A stretch of DNA of 17,543 bases, taken from assembly GCA_002284615.2 (NCBI GenBank), contig MU069899.1, positions 105,576-123,118 on the forward strand. The letters are read 5' to 3'. A program made the translations under genes and the position numbers. Positions 3,880 through 17,543 of this stretch are shown in pieces. Numbering within the stretch: the first letter of the stretch is position 1; every line of letters starts with the position of its first letter. This stretch comes from Dunaliella salina (Eukaryota; Chlorophyta; Chlorophyceae; Chlamydomonadales; Dunaliellaceae). The notes below the pieces were generated by a model. The model was given only the letters and a program-made list of their open reading frames with translations. It made no database searches and had not been told where the DNA came from.

Positions 3880-3978
3880 TGGTGAGGCTGACACTTAGTG
3901 CCAGTGCTAACTGTTGTGTCTTCCCTTAATGCATGCTGGATACTGCCCAGCGTGGAATTGTACTTTTTCTTTTTAGGT
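3880..3978 (+). mobile_element. Diverged LINE subfamily B 3' UTR of copy E
   Basis: Directly downstream of the copy E reading frame. It keeps TGGTGAGGC, CTTCCCTTAATGCATGC and a TACTTTTTCTTTTTA tail in the same order as the other B-type 3' ends, though strongly diverged. It marks the 3' terminus of copy E. Confidence 0.55.
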
Positions 3979-3984
3979 AAAAGA

Positions 3985-4228
3985 AAAGGATNTTCAGCCT
4001 GGTTGGGTGAGGTGTCAGTCTCATTGAAGGACATAGCTGCTTGAAGTGCAAAAGCATTTGCACCTTCATCACCAAGGATGCCACAGTGGGGCTTTCGGAT
4101 GCACCAATGCAAGCTACGATCTCTTTAAGAAAGTGCATGGACATATCAATGGGTTTGAAGATCTGGTTTATAATCTGATTCAGTGTTGAAGAACTGTCAG
4201 TTGCAAAAATGCAGTCGAAAAAATTAAC
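3985..4228 (-). pseudogene. LINE copy C: RNase H fragment
   Basis: Minus-strand translation gives CIFATDSSSTLNQI (the TDS strand of RNase H, near 4215), then, after a frame change, KPHCGILGDEGANAFALQAA (about 4090-4030). In retrotransposon RNase H this reads HSGI.GNE.AD. The terminal catalytic Asp of the AD pair is Asn here, so the fragment could not be active even without its frameshift. It continues for about 20 residues and is cut off at an AAAAGAAAAGG tract near 3980. It lies tail to tail with copy E. Confidence 0.7.
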
Positions 4229-4495
4229 TACCATTATTATCACCAGGCATGCCCTTCATTCTCAGGGGGCTTGTGCGGGGAGGGTCCGCAGGGTGCGCAG
4301 TGGTGGAGAGCAGGAAAAAGATCCCAAGCATCAGGAGCAAAGCAGACAACCCTCCAGATCCTCATTAGCTCTGTCTCTGGCCCTCACCTAGGCTTTTGAG
4401 GGCCTTTTGGTGAGGCCCTTCCTAGCTTGCTATATAGGCGACCTTCCCTGAATGCANGCGGCCTCTGGCCTGTATAGGCTTTACTTTACTTTACT
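4207..4495 (+). pseudogene. LINE copy F: C-terminus plus complete subfamily B 3' UTR
   Basis: A short coding remnant, MQSKKLTTIIITRHALHSQG (4209-4268), aligns with HAIQKLTSIINIRHALHFQ of copy D. The end of the ORF is AACCCTCCAGATCCTCATTAG-like, that is NPPDPH-stop, near 4349-4369. The 3' UTR then runs through CTCTGTCTCTGGCC, GGTGAGGCC, GACCTTCCCTGAATGCA and GCGGCCTCTGGCCTGTATAG to a TTTAC-type tail ending about 4495. This copy shows most clearly that the short B-type repeats elsewhere are LINE 3' ends and not an independent SINE. Confidence 0.7.
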
Positions 4496-5560: not shown

Positions 5561-5692
5561 ATTTCTCCTTCTCATACTTTGTGGTGGAGGGGGCACACGG
5601 CTCTTTTTGAGCCAATGTGCCTCCTCTTCCTTAATTGATGTAGGGAGTGTTTCTCTGCCTACGTAGTTTTTCTTTTTCTTTTTCTTTCTTGG
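5561..5692 (+). mobile_element. LINE subfamily A 3' UTR and CTTTT tail
   Basis: It follows the copy A stop codon directly. It contains the stem-loop at 5586-5624, then CCTTAATTGATGTAGGGAG, CTGCCTACGTAG and a TTTTTC-repeat tail (5668-5692). The same sequence recurs at 16241-16348 and, inverted, at 6330-6402. Confidence 0.8.
5586..5624 (+). promoter_or_regulatory. LINE 3' UTR stem-loop
   Basis: GGAGG / GGCACA / GGCTC pair with GAGCC / TGTGCC / CTCC around a TTTTT loop. The stems are 5599-5603 with 5609-5613, and 5592-5597 with 5616-5621. The second copy at 16245-16283 keeps the fold, with a G-C to A-T exchange at one pair. Some LINE reverse transcriptases recognise a 3' hairpin of their own RNA, so that role is plausible but inferred. 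Confidence 0.65.
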
Positions 5693-6329
5693 ACAATTGT
5701 GTTAGTTTATCAGAATTCTCCAAACATTTCTACAAAGTCAAACCACATAGTGGCATTCTTGGCAATGAAAGCGCAGATGCACTTGCTCTTCAAGCAGCAA
5801 TGTTGCTTTATGAAGCTGACACCTCACTCAGCCAGGCTGAAAAACCCTTCTTTCATCTCAATTGGCTTGCTACATCAGTTAAAAAACTGGATCTCATACA
5901 GAATGTTGGCCCCTTTCAAACTTCCAAGACAAAGTGAAACAAATTGTGCATGACAAGCAGGGAACAGCAAACATTTACTCTTGCGCCTACACAAACTTGC
6001 GAAACAGACAAAGCATGAAAAATCATCAAATCATCAACCCACAGCTAAATTCAAGATCAGTAATGCTTCCTGGCATATGAAAGCTGTGACCCTCAACGAG
6101 TTGATCAATGTCATCAAGCATCGAACAGACACCCTTTACAATGGCAAGCATGCCAGATGCTACTAGCTGTAGTACAGTGGCCACCCAGGGCCCGCTCTTT
6201 GCCCTCTGTGTGATGCATCTGATAGCACCTCCCTTACCCTACCCTCAGATGCACCTACTAAAAGAAATGAATCGTTACCATCAAGCTCTCAGCATTTTTG
6301 GTGAAGCAATCAGCAATTGAGATTTCAGA

Positions 6330-8128: not shown

Positions 8129-8199
8129 ATGGCGGGAACAAGGCCAAGAATAGCTGTCTCGAACCCCGTGGTGGACCTGGACGGGGATGAACAGACCAG
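8129..8199 (+). CDS. IDH: NADP-dependent isocitrate dehydrogenase, exon 1
   Basis: The translation contains RIAVSNPVVDLDGDEQTR, the conserved N-terminal strand of eukaryotic NADP-IDH (typical form NPVVEMDGDEMTR). The enzyme oxidatively decarboxylates isocitrate to 2-oxoglutarate with NADP+. The start ATG at 8129 sits in a CAGCAGCATGG context, is the first ATG of the frame, and leaves only five residues before the conserved strand. There is no visible targeting peptide, which suggests a cytosolic form unless an upstream exon exists. The exon ends with AG of a split Arg codon (phase 2) followed by GCAAGA, a GC-type donor. The next coding block, equivalent to human IDH1 residues 21-90, was not found between here and 11215. 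Confidence 0.85.
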
Positions 8200-9097
8200 G
8201 CAAGAGCTGTACACTTGTAAAAGCTCCTGCACTCAATACGTACAAACCAGGGTANTCTGTTAGTTGAGAAGACTCAACCTGCTGTCCACATCAGCCAAGA
8301 CAGTTGAGGAAGGCAGCCAAGTNNTNGCCTCCAGCAAGTGTGTAGGTGCACCAAGGAGAAGGAGACAGCCAGANAAAACATTCATCCACTCAGTTCCCGA
8401 ATGCAATCAACAGCGTTCCTGAGTCCTGAGGAATACCGCATTCAGATGCAAAATACAGGATGAAGCGCTGCTGTGTCTGTGGAAGGATATTCATTGCTTT
8501 TTNTAGAGCTTACCCTCCAGCAAGTGTACAGGTGCACCAAGGAGAAGGGAAAAAATTAAATTACGACAGCTGCACATGCTGTTGTTTTTGTNTACACATG
8601 ACAACTGTTGTACATTACATTACATAAAGTTTTCAGCACATGTTGCACATTATTGTTCAGCACAGGACTGGGGATTCCCCAGTTCTGCTTTGCAAGCTCC
8701 TGTGAGAGCAACTCAGTGTCCTCGTGCTTCTCCTTGTTTCTTCTGTGCCTTAGCAACTCTGTCATCAATGTCTTGTGTAGCTGGAGGACTCGTCAGAGTC
8801 CGACATCTGTCATCAATAAATTTGAGGCCTTCTGAGGCTGCTGCTGTGTGCAGCAAGACTGAAAGAAAATATTATTTCCTTTTGTCTCTTAATTTTCCTG
8901 TGGCTTCGGCTGAGCAGTTAGTTTGTGTGGTCAGGGTTGTTTGTTACCCTGAGTAGGCTCTCTTTGAATCAATCCGTCAGCCTCGAGTGTAACATCCTAC
9001 ACCAGCAATCGTCAGACTCAGAGCCCGGCGCATATCCAGGCTGCGTCCGGTGAGTAGTATAGGAGGAACTCAAGCAAGGAAGCATCCCAAGCATTAG

Positions 9098-9215
9098 CCA
9101 GTACCATCTGCCCCTCCCAGGGTCCAGATACACCCTTCCAGTACCATCTGCCCCTCCCAGGGTCCAGGTACACCCTTCCAGTACCATCTGCCCCTCCCAG
9201 GGTCCAGGTACACTC
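9098..9215. repeat. 40-bp minisatellite, about 3 copies
   Basis: The unit CCAGTACCATCTGCCCCTCC plus CAGGGTCCAGRTACACCCTT starts at 9098, 9138 and 9178. Copies are nearly identical, so the expansion is recent. Repetitive ORFs on the minus strand follow from it. Confidence 0.95.
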
Positions 9216-9457
9216 AATCCGAGTGCCAGCATTCAATTGCGCTAGGTGATCTGCATTTCAGTCTCGAATCTCACGGAATCTTCTAGGAATCTCGCCAGCC
9301 ACAAACTCATTCCACCAAGCCCCAGGCCCTGCAGCACTCATTGCAGCGCGGGCCGAGGCGCAGGGGAGCAGCCTTAGCAGAAGGGGCAGCAACTCATAAC
9401 CCCTGTGCTCCTCAGCAACCATCTCTCCCCTGTCTAGTTGGCGCAGTGAATTGAACA

Positions 9458-9575
9458 GCGAAGTTAACACACACGACAGTTGCTGGAATTATCTCTATTC
9501 CCTACACTATTGATCCCATATGCAAACTTGGCCTAACAAAAGACAAAGCTTACAAAACTGCCAACAAGAGGATGA
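9458..9575 (+). pseudogene. LINE subfamily B fragment (RLE C-terminal part)
   Basis: The translation gives VAGIISIPYTIDP and KLGLTKDKAYKTANK, matching the segment VAGTVYNPYTINP ... LGLTKEKA of copy E. Only about 110 bp remain and no 3' UTR follows. It lies inside the putative first IDH intron. Confidence 0.7.
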
Positions 9576-9593
9576 CAAGCCGCTGATGCTTCT

Positions 9594-9720
9594 TTGCAGC
9601 CCAAGAAAAATTTGCATTCTGAGTCTCCAAGTGCCTCAGTAAGTGTTCATGCTTTCATTGCAGCCCAAGAAAATTTGCATCCTGAGTCTCCAAGTGCCTC
9701 AGTAAGTGTTCATGCTTTCA
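9594..9720 (+). repeat. Tandemly duplicated 64-bp segment with exon-like borders
   Basis: Two units (9594-9657 and 9658-9720) differ at very few positions. Each reads TTGCAG, then 38-39 bases, then GTAAGTGTTCATGCTTTCA. TTGCAG is a good acceptor and GTAAGT a strong donor, so each unit looks like a microexon with its flanks. The enclosed codons do not match IDH. Confidence 0.8.
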
Positions 9721-9985
9721 TCTTCCTGGTGTGCAAGTGCCTCAAGGACACAAGTCCCTTGCAAGGGACTCCAATTGGCTATATGACTCTGCGTCCTGAT
9801 GCTAGGAACACTGTCCTTTCGGCCTAGCTGATTCTTAGCTGCTCTCGCTGCATCCGGGCTCACATCGAGGATACCCTTGCATTATATTCAATACTTCATT
9901 GAAATATTCGAAAGTATTCCTATAACATTATAAGTGCACGAGGTGCAACCGGGGTCAAGTGTTACATTTGCTGTGGCGCTTGTGN

Positions 9986-10062
<77 letters not shown>

Positions 10063-10091
10063 GTTTGTGTGTGTATGTGTGTATGTGTGTC
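9986..10091 (+). repeat. (TG)n microsatellite
   Basis: Seventy-two bases of pure TG (9986-10057), then imperfect TG with C, TTT and A interruptions to about 10091. An N precedes the tract. Confidence 0.97.
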
Positions 10092-10296
10092 AACATTATC
10101 TGTGCTTCAACCTCCAGCTTCAAACACTTGACAACCCTGGTGGTATACAGCCAAAGATAGCAAGCAGTGGCCTCTTGTAGCACCAGCTGAAAACCATGTG
10201 CATTGATTCTCTTTTTGCGGTTTTGCTAGACCCGATCCCATTGTTGCTCACTCACCATGCTGCAGCCATTTGCATCCCATGTGAACTTGATGCTGT

Positions 10297-10482
10297 GTGT
10301 GTAAATGTGTGGGTATGTAGGTTTGGGTGGGCGTTGGTGTATGGATGTTGGGTGAGGGTGCTGGTGTGTCTGTGTGGGTGGTAGGTGTGGATGTAGGTGT
10401 GGGTGTGCGGGTGAGTTTAAGGTGTGGGTGTAGGTGTATGGGGGTTATCAGTGTGGATGTGGGTGTGGGTGTGGGTATTGGC
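10297..10482 (+). repeat. Degenerate GTGTGGGTG-rich repeat
   Basis: Variants of GGTGTGGGTGTAGGTGTG with irregular 6- and 12-base spacing. The + strand is strongly G/T. Several GGG runs could allow quadruplex formation. It is not a canonical telomere repeat. Confidence 0.85.
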
Positions 10483-11215
10483 TGCACATGGCAGTAGAAA
10501 AGAGGATGAGAGCAAATAACCCCAACTTAGCCAATTTGTGGGGTTCTACTCTGGCAACAGCAAACTCTTGCGCGCCTCCCAGACTAGGCCCTTCCTAACT
10601 CAGCTTTCAGCCCAGTGTTTGTGCTAGGGTGCTGAAGAAAGGGAGAAGGGGGCAGTGTGGCGACCCAAGAACACTTCCAGGGTTCTCCATTCTGTCACAT
10701 TTACCCTCAGGTGTGTTGCAGTGATAACGCAAACACTAATTCGTCAGGAATGGGTTCAGTTGGTGGTCCGGGAAGGTCAGGGAGAGCAAGAGGGTCTGTG
10801 GGCTTAGGTGGACCTCAGAGGCGCTTTTCTGTTTTCCTTACAAGGAGCACCTCCAGAGAGCTTTTTCCCCACATGTCTTTTTCAATTAAACCACCACAAT
10901 TTCTACCTGAATGCAAAATTTAGGTTTAAGATCCTGAGGTTTGCTCTGATTCCAACCAAACTCTGGCCGAGATTGAGCCCAGACTCCTGTAGCGAAATAA
11001 AAAGTAAAGAAATTTCTCATGCACTTCTTACTACCTTGGTAGCAATAAGAGGTATCAGAATTGGGTACTTGCATTAGTTACGGCAGTTCTGTGTCATACA
11101 CATGTGTTTGGACCCTCTGAAATGAGTGCTATGCTGCACTAAGAGTTTGCTCACAGCCCTGTCCCAATTTGACCAGAGGTGTGTTGATGGACCCTACCCT
11201 CTATATGGCTTGCAG

Positions 11216-11271
11216 ATGTGGAAGAGCCCAAATGGTACCATCCGCAACATTTTGAATGGCACAGTTTTCAG
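11216..11271 (+). CDS. IDH: NADP-dependent isocitrate dehydrogenase, substrate-binding exon
   Basis: The 56-bp exon encodes MWKSPNGTIRNILNGTVF plus the first two bases of Arg. It is preceded by ...ATATGGCTTGCAG and followed by GTGCGTGCC. The block is almost invariant in eukaryotic NADP-IDH. It carries the equivalents of human IDH1 Ser94, Asn96, Arg100 and (split codon) Arg109, which bind isocitrate. It starts in phase 0 and ends in phase 2, joining exactly to the next recognised exon (AG|G = Arg). No substitutions hit the active-site residues, which argues for a gene under selection until recently. Confidence 0.93.
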
Positions 11272-11887
11272 GTGCGTGCCAGCTGAGGTGTTTGCAACCT
11301 GCTTAAGTTTTCCTCCCTTCTCTGTTTCTCCCGTCAACATAAATGTGTATTTGATGCGAGTGCATGCACTTGCATCTGCACGTTCATCCATTGCTCTAGC
11401 AGGTGCAGGAAAAAGAGAGGGCATAAAGTTTGATGTGAGCTCCATGGACTTTGGTTTTGTTTATGAAAATATGCCTCTTTGGAGTTCATTTAATGACGCC
11501 TTGCAAAAGAAGAAGCTTATCTCAAGTTCCGTCCTAGTTTTATTTCTTCTTTCTGGTGAAGGAGGCTTGTGGCATTTTAAGCTTGCGCTTCATAGCTTGT
11601 CAATGTTAAAGGTGTCTCACTGCCTTTGCAGGTTTCCTTTTGGAGGCAAATCTTTGCTTGGCTGCTGGTTGCCGCACCCTTCCCTTGCGCTCCCCTGTTT
11701 GTGATGCAACTGTTCACGCATCCTTTGATGTTATCATCTGGATGCATGAAACTCATTGAGAAGGTTTTACGCACGTTTAAAGCCACTGTTCAGAAGCACA
11801 CGACTGCTAAGTTGTGCCTTGAAAAAAGATTTCAAGAGGCTCCAACATGAAAGTAGTGCACAAAATCATGCAAGAAACTGGATGCAG
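11272..11887 (+). other. IDH intron, 616 bp
   Basis: The donor is GTGCGTGCC and the acceptor is ACTGGATGCAG. The phase-2 junction restores an Arg codon and the order of the conserved protein, so this intron is well supported. ORFs of up to 192 codons that cross from the preceding exon into it are read-through of non-coding sequence. Confidence 0.85.
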
Positions 11888-11956
11888 GGAGCCCATCGTC
11901 ATCTCCAACATCCCTCGCTTGGTGCCTGGATGGAAGCAGCCCATCGTGATTGGCAG
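11888..11956 (+). CDS. IDH: NADP-dependent isocitrate dehydrogenase exon ending at the Arg132-equivalent
   Basis: The 69-bp exon has split Arg codons on both sides (phase 2/2). It encodes EPIVISNIPRLVPGWKQPIV then IG, matching human [22 protein letters not shown]. The second split codon (AG|.) is the counterpart of Arg132, an isocitrate-binding residue. The donor is CAG|GTGTGAG. The final 17 bases of this exon and the following intron bases are the founder of the tandem array that starts here. The next block, human residues 133-221 with Tyr139 and Lys212, was not found before 15328. Confidence 0.93.
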
Positions 11957-13204
11957 GTGTGAGCAGTGTGAGCAGATTGAGCCCATTGTGATCGGTAGGT
12001 GTGTGCAGTGTGAGTTGAAAAAGGATGGAAGCAGCCCATCATGAATCGCAGGTGCGAGCAGTGTGAGCAATTAGAGCCCCTCGTGATTGGCATGTGTGAG
12101 CAGTGAGAGCAGTGTGAGTGGTTTGAGCCTACTGTGTTTGGCACGTGTGAGCAGTGTGAGCAGTAGGAGTGGTTTGAGCCCATTGTCATTGGCAGGAGTG
12201 AGCTGTGTGAGCGGTGTGAGCAGTGTGCGCAGTTTGAGCCCACCGTGATTGGCAGGTGTGAGCAGTGTGAGCATCGTGAGCCCATTGTGATTGGCATGTG
12301 TGAGCGGTGTGAGCATTGTGAGCAGTTTGAGCAGTTGAGCCCATCGTGGTTGGCAAGTGTGAGCGGTGTGCCGGCGTGCCCCTTGTGGTTGGCAGGTGTG
12401 AGCAGTGTGAGCAGTGTGAACAGTGTGAGCCCATTGTGGTTAGCAGGTGTGAGCAGTGTAAGCAGGTTGAGCTAATCGTGATTGGCAGGTGTGAGTGGTA
12501 TGAGCAGTGTGAGTGGTGTGAGCAGTGTGTGCAGTTTGAGCCCGCTGTGTTTGGCAGGTGTGTGCAGTGTGAACAGAGTGAGTGGTTTGAGCCGATTGTA
12601 ATTGGTATGTGTATGCAGTGTGAGCAGTTTGAGCCCAATCACAATATTGGTGATTGGCAGGTGTGACCAATGTGAGCAGTTGAAGCCCATTCTGATTTGC
12701 AGGTATGTGCAGTGTCAGCAGTATGAACAGTTTGAGCAGTTTGAGCCCATCGTAATTGGCAGGTGTGACCAATTTGAGCAGTTTGAAACCATTGTGATTT
12801 GCAGGTATGTGCAGTGTGCGCAGTTTTAGCCCATCATGATTGGCAGGTGTGACCAATGTGAGCAGTTTGAGCCCATTGTGATTTGCAGGTATGTGCAGTG
12901 TGAGCAGTGCGAGCAGTTTGGAAAGGCAGGTGTGTGCAGTGTGAGCAAAGTGAGCAGTATAAGCGGTTTGAGCCTATCGTGATTGGCAGGTGTGACCATT
13001 GTGAGCAGTTTGAGCCCATTGTGGTTGGCAGGTATGTGCAGTGTGAGCATAGTGTGAGCAGTTTGAGCACTTTGAGCCCATCGTGATTGGCAGGTGTGAC
13101 CAATATGGGCAGTTTGAGCCCATTGTGGTTGGCAGGTATGTGCAGTGTGAGTGGTGCGAGCAGTTTGAGCCCATCATGAATGGCATGTGTGAGCAGTGTG
13201 AGCT
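11939..13204 (+). repeat. Exon-intron junction array: about 26 units of a 42-bp (plus n x 9) repeat
   Basis: The unit is CCCATCGTGATTGGCAGGTG followed by TGAGCAGTGTGAGCAGTTTGAG. Its first 17 bases are the end of the IDH exon and the rest is the start of the intron. Unit lengths are mostly 42, 51, 60 or 69 bp because a nested GTGTGAGCA nonamer varies in number. One unit near 12025-12055 carries a longer exon piece (GGATGGAAGCAGCCCATC). From about 12630 two unit types alternate: one with GGCAGGTGTGACCAA, the other with TTGCAGGTATGTGCAG. Unit lengths are multiples of 3, so long ORFs appear on both strands. They have internal stops and no protein family, and are not taken as genes. Confidence 0.95.
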
Positions 13205-13667
13205 GGAAAAGGAAAGTTAAAGAAAGAGGAAAAAAACTTCCTGAAGAGTGGAAGCACTCCCTACAGTGTATGAGCAACACCAGCTTTACAAGGGTCACAA
13301 GGTCCACAAGAGAGGGGCCCTCAGTCAGTCAGAGCGCATGCCTGCTTGCAACAGCTTGACAATTGGATTTGCCTTTCGGAAAGGCACTTTGTCAGCCCTT
13401 GTGTTGATCTGCAGCCTAATGTGCTCATCAGGTGTGAGCAGAGCTGATGGAAGGAAGCGGTGGTTGCCATGCTGATGCTGCCTTAAGTTCACACAGTTTA
13501 CAAAAGGTTTAAAGCAAGGAAAGGAGCCATCAGCCAAAACCTGGACCTGCCTGAAGGGCATGTGCAAGTGGAAACAAGGAGAACAGCGTGCTTGTACGGG
13601 TAAGAGCATGCCCACACAAAAGGATCAGCTTTTTTGTTGCTGCGCATTGCTCATGAAAATTGGTCTT

Positions 13668-13678
<11 letters not shown>

Positions 13679-13701
<23 letters not shown>

Positions 13702-13702
13702 N

Positions 13703-13752
<50 letters not shown>
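13679..13752. repeat. (AC)n-N-(TG)n inverted microsatellite
   Basis: Twenty-three bases of AC are followed by a single N at 13702 and fifty bases of TG. The two arms are perfectly self-complementary. It may be a real hairpin-forming tract, or an assembly join through the N. Confidence 0.93.
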
Positions 13753-13753
<1 letters not shown>

Positions 13754-13912
13754 ATGTGAGCGCGCTGATAGGCTGGGCGCATGCGCTATGACAGGATTGT
13801 TGGCTTTGGGCATTTACTTACCGTACACAACATACTTACCGGCACATGATTATTACGCATTGTGTATCTTTTTTCAAGGTGTGCGAATTGCGTAATGGGG
13901 TTTTACAGTGGG

Positions 13913-13982
13913 ATGCGTAAAGGTGCATAAAGGTGCATAAAGGTGCGGAATGGTGCGTAAAGGCGCGTAAAGGTGTGCAAAG
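13913..13982 (+). repeat. 10-bp tandem repeat, 7 units
   Basis: Units of the form GTGCRTAAAG: ATGCGTAAAG, GTGCATAAAG twice, GTGCGGAATG, GTGCGTAAAG, GCGCGTAAAG, GTGTGCAAAG. No function is apparent. Confidence 0.95.
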
Positions 13983-14557
13983 AAAAAACTGCAGTGAGCT
14001 TTCTGACGCGCAATGGAGAAACTCAGTTGCTGATAAAAGGGGACGAGAACTGGTCACGAGACGGTGCGGCATTAAAAACGTGTCTTGGTAAGACCTCTTG
14101 ATTGGCCAATCGGCATAGCGAAGTTGCTAGTTTGAAAGAACTCCTCAGAAACTTCTCTATATGCATGCGGCCTTTTATGCTTGTGCAGTCTTTCCTTTCC
14201 TTTTTTCAGTTTTAAACACGTACTTGGTGATTTCTACAAAGGATTACAAGGGTCACAAGGAAAAAGGAGGCCTCCAGTCAAACCGACCAAATGCTAGCCC
14301 GTTCAAAATAAAAAAAGAGGAGTTCATGAAGAGTGCTCCTCTCAAGTGCTTGGTTGTAATCTCTACAAAGTAAAGTTTGTGTCACTGCCGATGAGCTTGT
14401 GCTTTCTAAGTTCGCAGAGAACAAGTGCAGCTGCATGCAAATACACATGTGCTCCAGCTTGCTTGAAGAAAATTGGGAAGCCCATACCTGGCTCTGTCGG
14501 ACACAGGGTTCACACTGCGACAGGCTCGGAAGGGCTTTTGCAGGATTGGCCCATTCC

Positions 14558-14791
14558 CTCTATTACACAGCAAATGCATCAAATTTTGAGCACTCAATAC
14601 ACAGCAAATGCTCCTCCAGCAAATGCTCCTCCAGCAAATGCTCCTCCAGCAAATGCTCCTCCAGCAAATGCTCCTCCAGCAAATGCTCCTATTACACAGC
14701 AAATGCATCAAATTTTGAGCACTCAATACTTCACTTCAAATGTGTCTACTTATGACACAGCAAATGCATCATATTTTGAGGACTCAATATG
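14558..14791 (+). repeat. 15-bp repeat nested in a larger duplication
   Basis: CAAATGCTCCTCCAG is repeated five times from 14605, then partially. It is bracketed by two copies of CTATTACACAGCAAATGCAT plus CAAATTTTGAGCACTCAATAC (about 14559-14600 and 14689-14730), with a third diverged copy at 14754-14791. The 15-base period gives a PPANA repeat in one frame and SSKC in another, with no sign of coding constraint. Confidence 0.95.
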
Positions 14792-15327
14792 GGCACACGG
14801 TATTGGCACACAGAGGAAAATAATGTGGCGAACCCAGGCTTTTGCCATTTTTTGCCAATTCCGCCGCAAATGCGGGCAGCCTCAAGCTGAGGAAAGGAAT
14901 CACATCCACAATGGGCAGCAAAAATAAGTCCCTTAAGTTCTTTAGACCGCTCATGCACCTCAAAAGCTGACTGCAGAGTTCTGCGACCCAAATTTCCAAT
15001 CCACCCCAGTGCAAGTTGCAGTTTAAAGCCCAGATTGCTGATCCGCCTTGTTGGAGACTGCAGAGGTGCGCGTTCCAAAGCCCAAGCCAGTCCAAGATAC
15101 TCCAGCTTATTGCAGAGTCTCATATGATTGCGGAGTTTCACAAGACAAACGAGAAACCTGACCATAAATGCGTGCCTCAGGCTTATTGCAGACGTCCAAA
15201 GGCAAGGGAGGAACCAAACCATGAATGTTTCCTCAGGCCCCTCGAAATATTTGTCTCAGGGTCCTGCAGCCATTTGCAGAAGTTCATGCATTCAACCTGG
15301 AACCTTTTGTATTCACGTGTTCCCCAG

Positions 15328-15431
15328 ATTCCTGGAGATTTTTGCAGAAGCATATGAGACAAAGTACAAGGCTCTGTTTGAGGCTGCTGGCATTTGGTAC
15401 GAGCACAGGCTCATCGATGACATGGTGGCTC

Positions 15432-15433
<2 letters not shown>
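15328..15433 (+). CDS. IDH: NADP-dependent isocitrate dehydrogenase exon with LIDDMVAQ motif
   Basis: The exon is preceded by CGTGTTCCCCAG. Its first base completes an Arg codon (phase 2), then come 35 codons: [35 protein letters not shown]. The human counterpart is residues 223-257. The first Asp of LIDDMVAQ is the Asp252 equivalent, which contributes to the divalent metal site of the partner subunit in the dimer. The exon ends on a full CAG codon (phase 0) and the next base starts an uninterrupted (GT)n tract. The following conserved exon (SEGGFVWACKNYDGDVQSD) was not seen in the remaining 2.1 kb. Confidence 0.93.

Positions 15434-15502
<69 letters not shown>
15434..15502 (+). repeat. (GT)n microsatellite forming the IDH 5' splice site
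   Basis: Sixty-nine bases of pure GT begin at the first intron base, followed by degenerate GCGTGC/GTGAG repeats to about 15580. Any GT in the tract could in principle be used as donor. Only the first keeps the exon end intact. Confidence 0.97.
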
Positions 15503-15512
<10 letters not shown>

Positions 15513-15847
15513 CGTGCGCGCATGAGTGCGTGCGTGAGTGTATGCGAGCATGCATGCTTGTGAGCGTGCGTGCGTGTGTGCTGGACAAGGGCGTGTCGGT
15601 CTTGTAAGGAGGAGCGAAAAAGGAGAGTGCTAGCTGAAAAGGCCTTTTGATGGTTTGTGCGACCATGGCTGTAGGCATACTTGCTCCTGCCATACTTCGC
15701 AAGTGGGCTTTGTCCATCACCCCGTAAGTTTTAAGTATACAGTAACTAAGAGCGCTGAGTTTGTGAGCTCAGTGCAAATTTGAGCAGCAGCTGGTGGAGG
15801 GTACATCTCATTAGGATGGAGGTTCTGGTCAGCAGCTGGAAGAAAAT
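15503..15847 (+). other. Degenerate GT/GC repeat tail, then unassigned sequence
   Basis: Imperfect GT/GC-rich repeats to about 15580, then no recognised coding sequence. A strong donor-like CACCCC|GTAAGT lies at 15723, but the upstream frame has no recognisable domain. Confidence 0.4.
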
Positions 15848-17042: not shown

Positions 17043-17543
17043 AGGTGTGTGCGCGCCTCATGTGTGGGCGCGCCACAGGTGTTGGTGCCCCTCAGACGGT
17101 GGTGCACCACAGATGTTGGAGCACATCAGGTGTTGGCTTCAAGTGTCTGATTATAATGCCCAAGTATTTTTTTTGCTGTGTGAGGTTCTGTGGTGCACCT
17201 CAGGTGCCGGTGCATGCCAGGTATGGTGCACCTCAGGTGGTGGGATAAGTGTTGGATTGTAATGCCTGAGTGTGTTGGTGCTGTGTGAGGTTCACTGGTG
17301 CACCTCAGGTGTTGGTACACCTCAAACGTTGGAGCACCTCTGGTGTTGTTTTAAGTACCTAATGATAATGCCTGAGTGCATTGGTGCTGTCTCAGGGTCA
17401 TTGGTGCACCTCAGGTGTTGGTGCATGCCAGATATTGGTTTCAAGGGGCTTATGCCTGAGTATTCTGTTGCTGTGTGAGGTTCATTGGTGCACCCCAGGT
17501 GTTGGTGCATGCCAGATATTGGTTTCAAGTGCCTGATTCTTAT
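17043..17543 (+). repeat. Minisatellite, unit about 90-107 bp, cut by window end
   Basis: Anchor TGCTGTGTGAGGTTC (variant TGCTGTCTCAGGGTC) occurs at about 17173, 17280, 17382 and 17470. Each is followed by YTGGTGCACCTCAGGTGTTG, GTGCATGCCAGATATTGG, TTTCAAGTGCCTGATT and AATGCCTGAGT. A shorter nested period around CCTCAGGTGTTGGTGCA is also visible. The ORFs on both strands are repeat artefacts. Confidence 0.93.

Follow-up and report, generated by a model that had tools for sequence, protein, structure and literature searches.

What is an array of splice-site copies doing at the start of an intron in an isocitrate dehydrogenase (IDH) gene of Dunaliella salina, where did its unit come from, and does the alga make any use of it? 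These questions arise from a stretch of 17,543 nucleotides of contig MU069899.1 (the whole stretch analysed, hereafter the window), for which a sequence-only reading had proposed that an IDH exon-intron junction was amplified into about 26 decoy splice donors.

The exon named as the source of the repeat (EPIVISNIPRLVPGWKQPIVIGR) proved to be an NADP-IDH exon, as it is matched both by the IDHs of the PDB and by the transcript product P0002. The 43-residue product of the exons at 11216-11271 and 11888-11956 matched 46 distinct PDB sequences at E <= 0.001, every one of them an isocitrate dehydrogenase. Ranked by summed score over the exon peptides of the window, the best relative among the 120 listed was P0002, an MMETSP transcript product with Volvox africanus and Gonium pectorale as its closest named kin (82% identity), kin that point to a chlorophyte as the source of the window, and P0002 came out on top again in a search with the fourth exon. 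In tblastn, P0002 matched four exons of the window, all on the forward strand, with probable ends placed by splice signals. The first, at 8129-8199 (87% over 23 amino acids, E 3e-9), encodes MAGTRPRIAVSNPVVDLDGDEQT and a split Arg codon and ends at AG/GCAAGAG, an apparent GC donor at 8200-8201 (here and below a slash marks the junction). The second, at 11216-11271 (95% over 20 amino acids, E 6e-9), encodes MWKSPNGTIRNILNGTVF and a split Arg codon before the donor CAG/GTGCGT. The exon at 11888-11956, found by P0002, by the PDB IDHs and by a profile of 58 IDHs, encodes EPIVISNIPRLVPGWKQPIVIG and a split Arg codon and is the source of the repeat, and the exon at 15328-15433 (91% over 33 amino acids, E 1e-16) encodes 35 residues. 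The profile found the same four exons in the window and nothing more below E 0.8. All four are open; three of the four matches are 87-95% identical to P0002, and the remaining one, at 62%, runs into the intron. The junction of the source exon lies, as had been claimed, inside the codon equivalent to human Arg132 (AG/...). Pfam searches of six open reading frame stretches returned just two matches, both below threshold, one to Iso_dh in 15128-15607 and the other unrelated, and Iso_dh did not match the alga's own genome; this search is blind to short exons, since the protein query does find IDH exons in the genome. Rfam and tRNA scans of the whole window found nothing.

The array is real, and it begins at the end of the source exon, where the forward strand carries copies of the exon end and the intron start from 11940 to 13204. 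A window-wide comparison with the last 17 bases of the exon (CCCATCGTGATTGGCAG), with a cut-off of 6 mismatches in 17, found 25 non-overlapping copies that start between 11940 and 13170 and span 11940-13186. Copy no. 1 is the IDH exon itself; two of the 25 copies match exactly, the exon included, 21 have no more than 3 mismatches, and the worst copy accepted has 5. Chance similarity is ruled out as their source by the 21 matches at no more than 4 mismatches in 11957-13204, as against a mean of 0.04 and a maximum of 1 in 200 first-order Markov sequences. Outside the array, seven sites in the window have 5 or 6 mismatches to the 17-mer, one of which (11892) is the start of the same exon, and its reverse complement occurs nowhere in the window at up to 4 mismatches. 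The sequence-only reading had allowed that the 17-mer might turn out to be absent from most units on realignment; instead, with 25 copies at no more than 5 mismatches, its description of a unit that begins with the last 17 exon bases and continues into the intron stands. The intron bases copied along with the exon end are those of the authentic 5' splice site (GTGTGAGCAG, 11957-11966). A GT directly follows 24 of the 25 copies, in keeping with the claim that nearly every unit has a GT donor, and GA follows the other; the junction reads AGGT in 18 copies and GCAGGT in 17. A longer exon piece, GGATGGAAGCAG (29 exon-end bases), is seen again once, at 12023-12051, which is the early unit that had been singled out, and a damaged 26th unit, of which just GGCAG/GTGTGTGCAG is left, lies at 12925-12939 and brings the total to the 26 or so proposed.

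The 24 steps from copy to copy measure 42 bases ten times, 51 five times, 60 twice, and 69 and 39 once each, and the remaining steps are 53, 59, 52, 101 and 62. A spacing of 33+9k fits 18 of them because the units hold a varying number of a 9-base sub-unit, GTGTGAGCA. Over the array region TRF reported several periods, including 9, 42, 51, 60, 69, 84 and 104. The second half (12721-13170) has higher-order periods of 84 and 104 bases, with two alternating kinds of unit (GTGTGACC units and GTATGTG donors) and a greater similarity at lag 2 than at lag 1. On the minus strand, open frames of 190 and 177 amino acids cross the array (11899-12471 and 12440-12973); these most likely arise just because the repeats lack stops, and they could mislead gene-finding programs.

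As had been argued from the conservation of the protein, copying ran from exon to repeat. Compared as 36-mers, the exon copy is the most central of all, with a mean identity to the other copies of 0.867 (rank 1 of 25; the next has 0.832), and the mean is 0.778 among the 24 intronic copies; on the 17-mer alone, the exon copy shares first place with the copy at 13077, whose 17-mer is identical. Taken together, the intronic copies give a consensus that agrees with the exon copy at 35 of 36 positions, and the sole difference is the C of a CpG, altered in 14 of the 24 copies and in 13 of these to T, in a window that is poor in CpG (observed/expected 0.40, with TpG at 1.47). This central position of the exon copy, and the near-identity of the intronic consensus to it, uphold the direction; the opposite direction, from repeat to exon, is ruled out by protein conservation together with this centrality. 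The divergence is star-like, so the exon junction is the founder and most copies drifted independently, accumulating changes at about 13% of positions (115 of 864 cells). Judged from the sequences, the dimer expansion in the second half would have come after this drift of most copies. Conservation is about the same in the exonic 17 bases as in the intronic part (0.86 and 0.88-0.89), as expected in the absence of coding or splicing constraint.

We interpret the array as a mirage-type minisatellite at the 5' exon-intron junction of the NADP-IDH gene, most likely a neutral passenger, and give this reading a probability of roughly three in four. The junction, with 17 exon and about 10 intron bases, would have been duplicated head to tail, and the process may well have begun through slippage or unequal exchange at short repeats (GCAG or AGCAG) that flank the junction, which stand in the exon as ...GGAAGCAG/CCCATC...GGCAG and in the intron as GTGTGAGCAGTGTGAGCAG. 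Amplification would then have proceeded jointly with the 9-base sub-unit TGTGAGCAG, giving rise to the 33+9k steps, and the copies would have drifted afterwards, with CpG decay. The array is most likely removed with its intron, with the first, authentic donor presumably in use, and the repeated AG/GT sites would be passengers whose cryptic use is low-level at most. Under this model the array is probably neutral, and most likely a harmless by-product of DNA copying.

Alternatively, the 9-base minisatellite TGTGAGCAG may have been the older part, an element common to another locus that settled beside the donor and captured the exon end later, an order of events that we consider unlikely. Within the 285-Mb assembly, the exon-derived unit is concentrated at the IDH locus: the unit 20-mer CCCATYGTGATTGGCAGGTG has 20 sites at up to 2 mismatches, 17 of them in the array and three on the opposite strand of three other contigs, and the reversed-pattern control has none. 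One further locus, C756:3527-5930, carries the 9-base element in tandem, as a 2.4-kb array, and a 24-base pattern of it has 14 genome sites at up to 1 mismatch, 3 here and 11 there (none for the reversed pattern), so the 9-base part need not have arisen at the IDH locus. The C756 array, however, is without the exon 17-mer (best match 7 mismatches ungapped, and gapped score no higher than that of order-4 Markov sequences) and without CAGGT, and consequently a 9-mer that came first would account for half of the unit only. Moreover, the 9-mer begins exactly at donor +1, which local amplification of the intron start can explain. We therefore rejected C756 as a second exon-founded array, the 9-mer being all that the two have in common; the 9-base half of the unit may have its own history, which the exon half does not have. 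On both strands of the C756 array (L018:3527-5930), whose 9-mer is TGAGCAGTG, long open frames encode repeat residues. The core patterns of the IDH array had no matches in viral contigs and prokaryote genomes, collections from which records of the alga's own genome may be excluded, and viral contigs held no relatives of P0002.

Other repeats in the window bear some likeness to splice junctions. A (GT)34 microsatellite at 15434-15502 (forward strand) begins exactly at the donor CAG/GTGTGT of the exon before it, so that two of the four IDH donors in the window open a tandem repeat. A broader reading, which we hold to be improbable, is that donors rich in GT would more generally give rise to tandem repeats in this genome. 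When the 36-mers of six further IDH junctions were compared with the window, five found just themselves, and that of the donor at 15434 had 84 matches, the best 8 of the 84 being itself and GT runs. A 63-base repeat at 9586-9721 (2.2 copies) contains in its unit both a TTTCATTGCAG resembling an acceptor and a GTAAGT resembling a donor. It might likewise be a repeated junction, from an exon that escaped recognition. The 17-base repeats at 17043-17523 (TGGTGCACCTCAGGTGT) show a weak likeness to the junction of the 15328 exon (ATGGTGGCTCAG/GTGTG; shuffle P 0.01). Two stretches, at 3926-4255 on the reverse strand and 5639-5953 on the forward strand, resemble pieces of a retroelement's RNase H, which we take the HSGILGNESADALALQAA-like motif to represent; Pfam gave no match to either.

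The copied donors raise the question of whether the array has a function. GT sites that agree with the consensus at 7 or more of 9 positions occur at 21.6 per kb in the array and at 2.3 per kb elsewhere in the window. Using what we take to be the sequence of the U1 5' end, 9 of the 24 decoys form a stronger duplex with U1 than the authentic donor, 8 an equal one and 7 a weaker one, which makes correct splicing at the first donor an assumption. In U1 duplex energy the decoys average -6.7 kcal/mol, the same value as the authentic donor and stronger pairing than the -5.8 expected from mutation alone. Of the 35 pairs of neighbouring columns, GT has changed least (1 of 48 cells, against 115 of 864 overall). 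Both observations speak against a pure passenger, and the donors may be weakly retained. The surplus in pairing energy is not robust evidence of selection on them: P is 0.003 when the 24 copies are treated as independent and rises to 0.19 on the 12 distinct sequences that remain once identical ones are collapsed, so that we see no firm evidence in these sequences for retention by selection.

We think it improbable, a little more so than the prior existence of the 9-mer, that the array is functional, with its AG/GT units acting as alternative or dual-specific splice sites (donor and acceptor), through which transcripts would skip or take up varying numbers of units of 13 to 23 residues (CEQCEQFEPIVIG-type) at the Arg132 codon, or would be directed to decay. 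AGGT at 18 of 25 junctions and the retention of GT are suggestive, and human UBC provides a real case of dual-specific AGGT sites arrayed in tandem (PMC10809524). Taken as mini-exons, 16 of the 24 unit-to-unit stretches are in frame and open (5 shift the frame and 3 have stops), counts that presuppose use of the unit as acceptor as well as donor; the unit AGs have a mean pyrimidine share of 0.53, higher than the exon's own acceptor (0.35) and lower than two other acceptors (0.70 and 0.75). A change of donor alone, however, leaves the message in frame and free of stops for one decoy of 24 (donor 11999, +42 bases), and the other 23 lead to a stop codon after 29 codons. The in-frame insertions of 42 to 69 bases that had been suggested would thus be the exception if they came from a donor shift, and the ideas that decoys buffer donor loss or poison splicing did not gain support. 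The donor -1 G is altered in 6 of 24 copies, a unit length of 42+9k maintains phase without selection, and changes fall on the three codon positions as 30/41/44, with no strong third-position bias. Less probable still is a more specific version suggested by the sequences, a kept bank of dual-purpose AG/GT sites in which re-splicing or random choice of units would give a share of IDH messengers one or more CEQCEQFEPIVIG-type units (14 residues in the case of the basic one), or else a stop, right at the Arg132 codon; the output of NADP-IDH would thereby be tuned, and the length of the array would be the control.

Parts of the IDH gene could not be detected in the window. Residues 27-96 of P0002, between the first two exons, had no counterpart in the window (best E 0.38 when queried alone), and neither had residues 139-230, between the array exon and the 15328 exon (best E 0.65), in a search where exon matches of just 20-23 residues reached E below 1e-8. 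The stretch 11957-15327 had been treated as a single intron; this was not borne out, as residues 139-230, due between its flanking exons, are undetectable in the window. The sole N of that interval, at 13702, separates (CA)n from (TG)n and marks a possible assembly seam at which the next IDH exon or exons may have been lost. The other interval lacking expected exons, 8200-11215, holds eight Ns, one at the edge of a (TG)n run (9985) and seven (8255-8592) away from such runs, and the complete interval 11272-11887 has none. Across 57.7 kb (the window and 8 of 49 loci, two of them overlapping), 7 of the 13 GT runs that are 16 bases or longer abut on an N or reach a contig end, and one N is common to two of these runs; GT/CA runs meet Ns or contig ends at 9985 and 13702 in the window and at L017:3420, L018:1, L042:341 and L049:1340. 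Dinucleotide repeats are likely assembly breakpoints, and Ns at such runs are probably seams where sequence, exons included, dropped out, in which case 11957-15327 is not one intron.

The window fills exactly the space on scaffold C464 between two N stretches of 5362 and 12172, which may represent gaps or withheld sequence. In the whole genome P0002 had five matches, all on C464, including a last-exon match past the second N stretch (C464:138429-138521). A (CA)n run there (L019:5306-5334, C464:138424-138452) ends a few bases before the probable acceptor of this last exon (...CACACATGCAG/TAC). When the whole assembly was queried with the 92 missing residues, no match appeared, a result without weight because alpha-tubulin and actin were likewise not found: pieces of human alpha-tubulin reached at most 49% identity, with the best match at 44%, and the best actin match was unconvincing (E 0.10). 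Such poor recovery is odd for an algal genome, and coding parts may be missing from the assembly or withheld in it. The contig's lack of detectable exons for residues 27-96 and 139-230, the single Ns at its dinucleotide repeats (9985, 13702) and the N stretches that bound it would all fit an assembly artefact or a dead IDH copy, yet we hold this to be very improbable, since the array is free of Ns, its 25 36-mers are all distinct and its longest exact repeat is 43 bases, which makes an assembler's false duplication of one junction unlikely, and since the open, largely well-conserved exons and the last-exon match on the same scaffold speak against a dead copy.

A mirage-type minisatellite has known relatives, and the implication that junction-founded arrays lack precedent does not hold: in amphioxus genes, exon-intron boundaries duplicated in tandem after the manner of a minisatellite have been described under the name of mirages, for Adh3 and the globins BflGb6 and BflGb9 in PMC3087553 and for TnC and PGBD5 in PMC3902484, and they reportedly leave splicing undisturbed. 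Like mirages, the IDH array is a tandem head-to-tail repeat (25 copies in one orientation), its unit spans the exon-intron boundary of the host gene, and many but not all units have AG/GT (GT in 24 and AGGT in 18 of 25). Its units are similar in size to those of Adh3, given as 10-72 bp in PMC3087553, which also describes BflGb9 as duplicated, like IDH, at a 3' exon boundary, that is, on the donor side. The hosts differ, a chlorophyte here and a cephalochordate there; the IDH array has 25-26 units and a 9-base inner repeat, whereas BflGb6 has 6 and 3 units in two haplotypes, and the IDH copies are more diverged (mean pairwise identity 0.785 over 36 bases) than the units of BflGb6 (81-100%). The IDH array is a mirage by its anatomy in one assembly, the traits of mirages also including length polymorphism, somatic instability and undisturbed splicing.

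By analogy, the nearest functional parallel would be human UBC, a tandem repeat with dual-specific AGGT splice sites that act as donor or acceptor and for which splicing was observed (PMC10809524). Its tandem units, like those of IDH, contain an AGGT able to serve either way; they are coding ubiquitin monomers, whereas the IDH units are intronic and their dual use is putative. In potato RdRp, an intron is reported to have been gained by tandem duplication across an intron-exon boundary (PMC4974935). That duplication also crosses a boundary, but it was single and created an intron, whereas the one in IDH produced extra boundary copies within an existing intron. A partial literature search, at the level of titles and abstracts, found no such array outside amphioxus or in an alga. 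The IDH array is therefore of a known kind, in a new lineage, the chlorophytes, and with many copies.

If this is indeed a large algal mirage, the duplication of splice junctions into minisatellites is not peculiar to lancelets. The array offers a natural test of how the spliceosome chooses among 25 near-copy donors, including 9 whose pairing with U1 is stronger than that of the authentic one, and it bears on the question of intron gain by tandem duplication.
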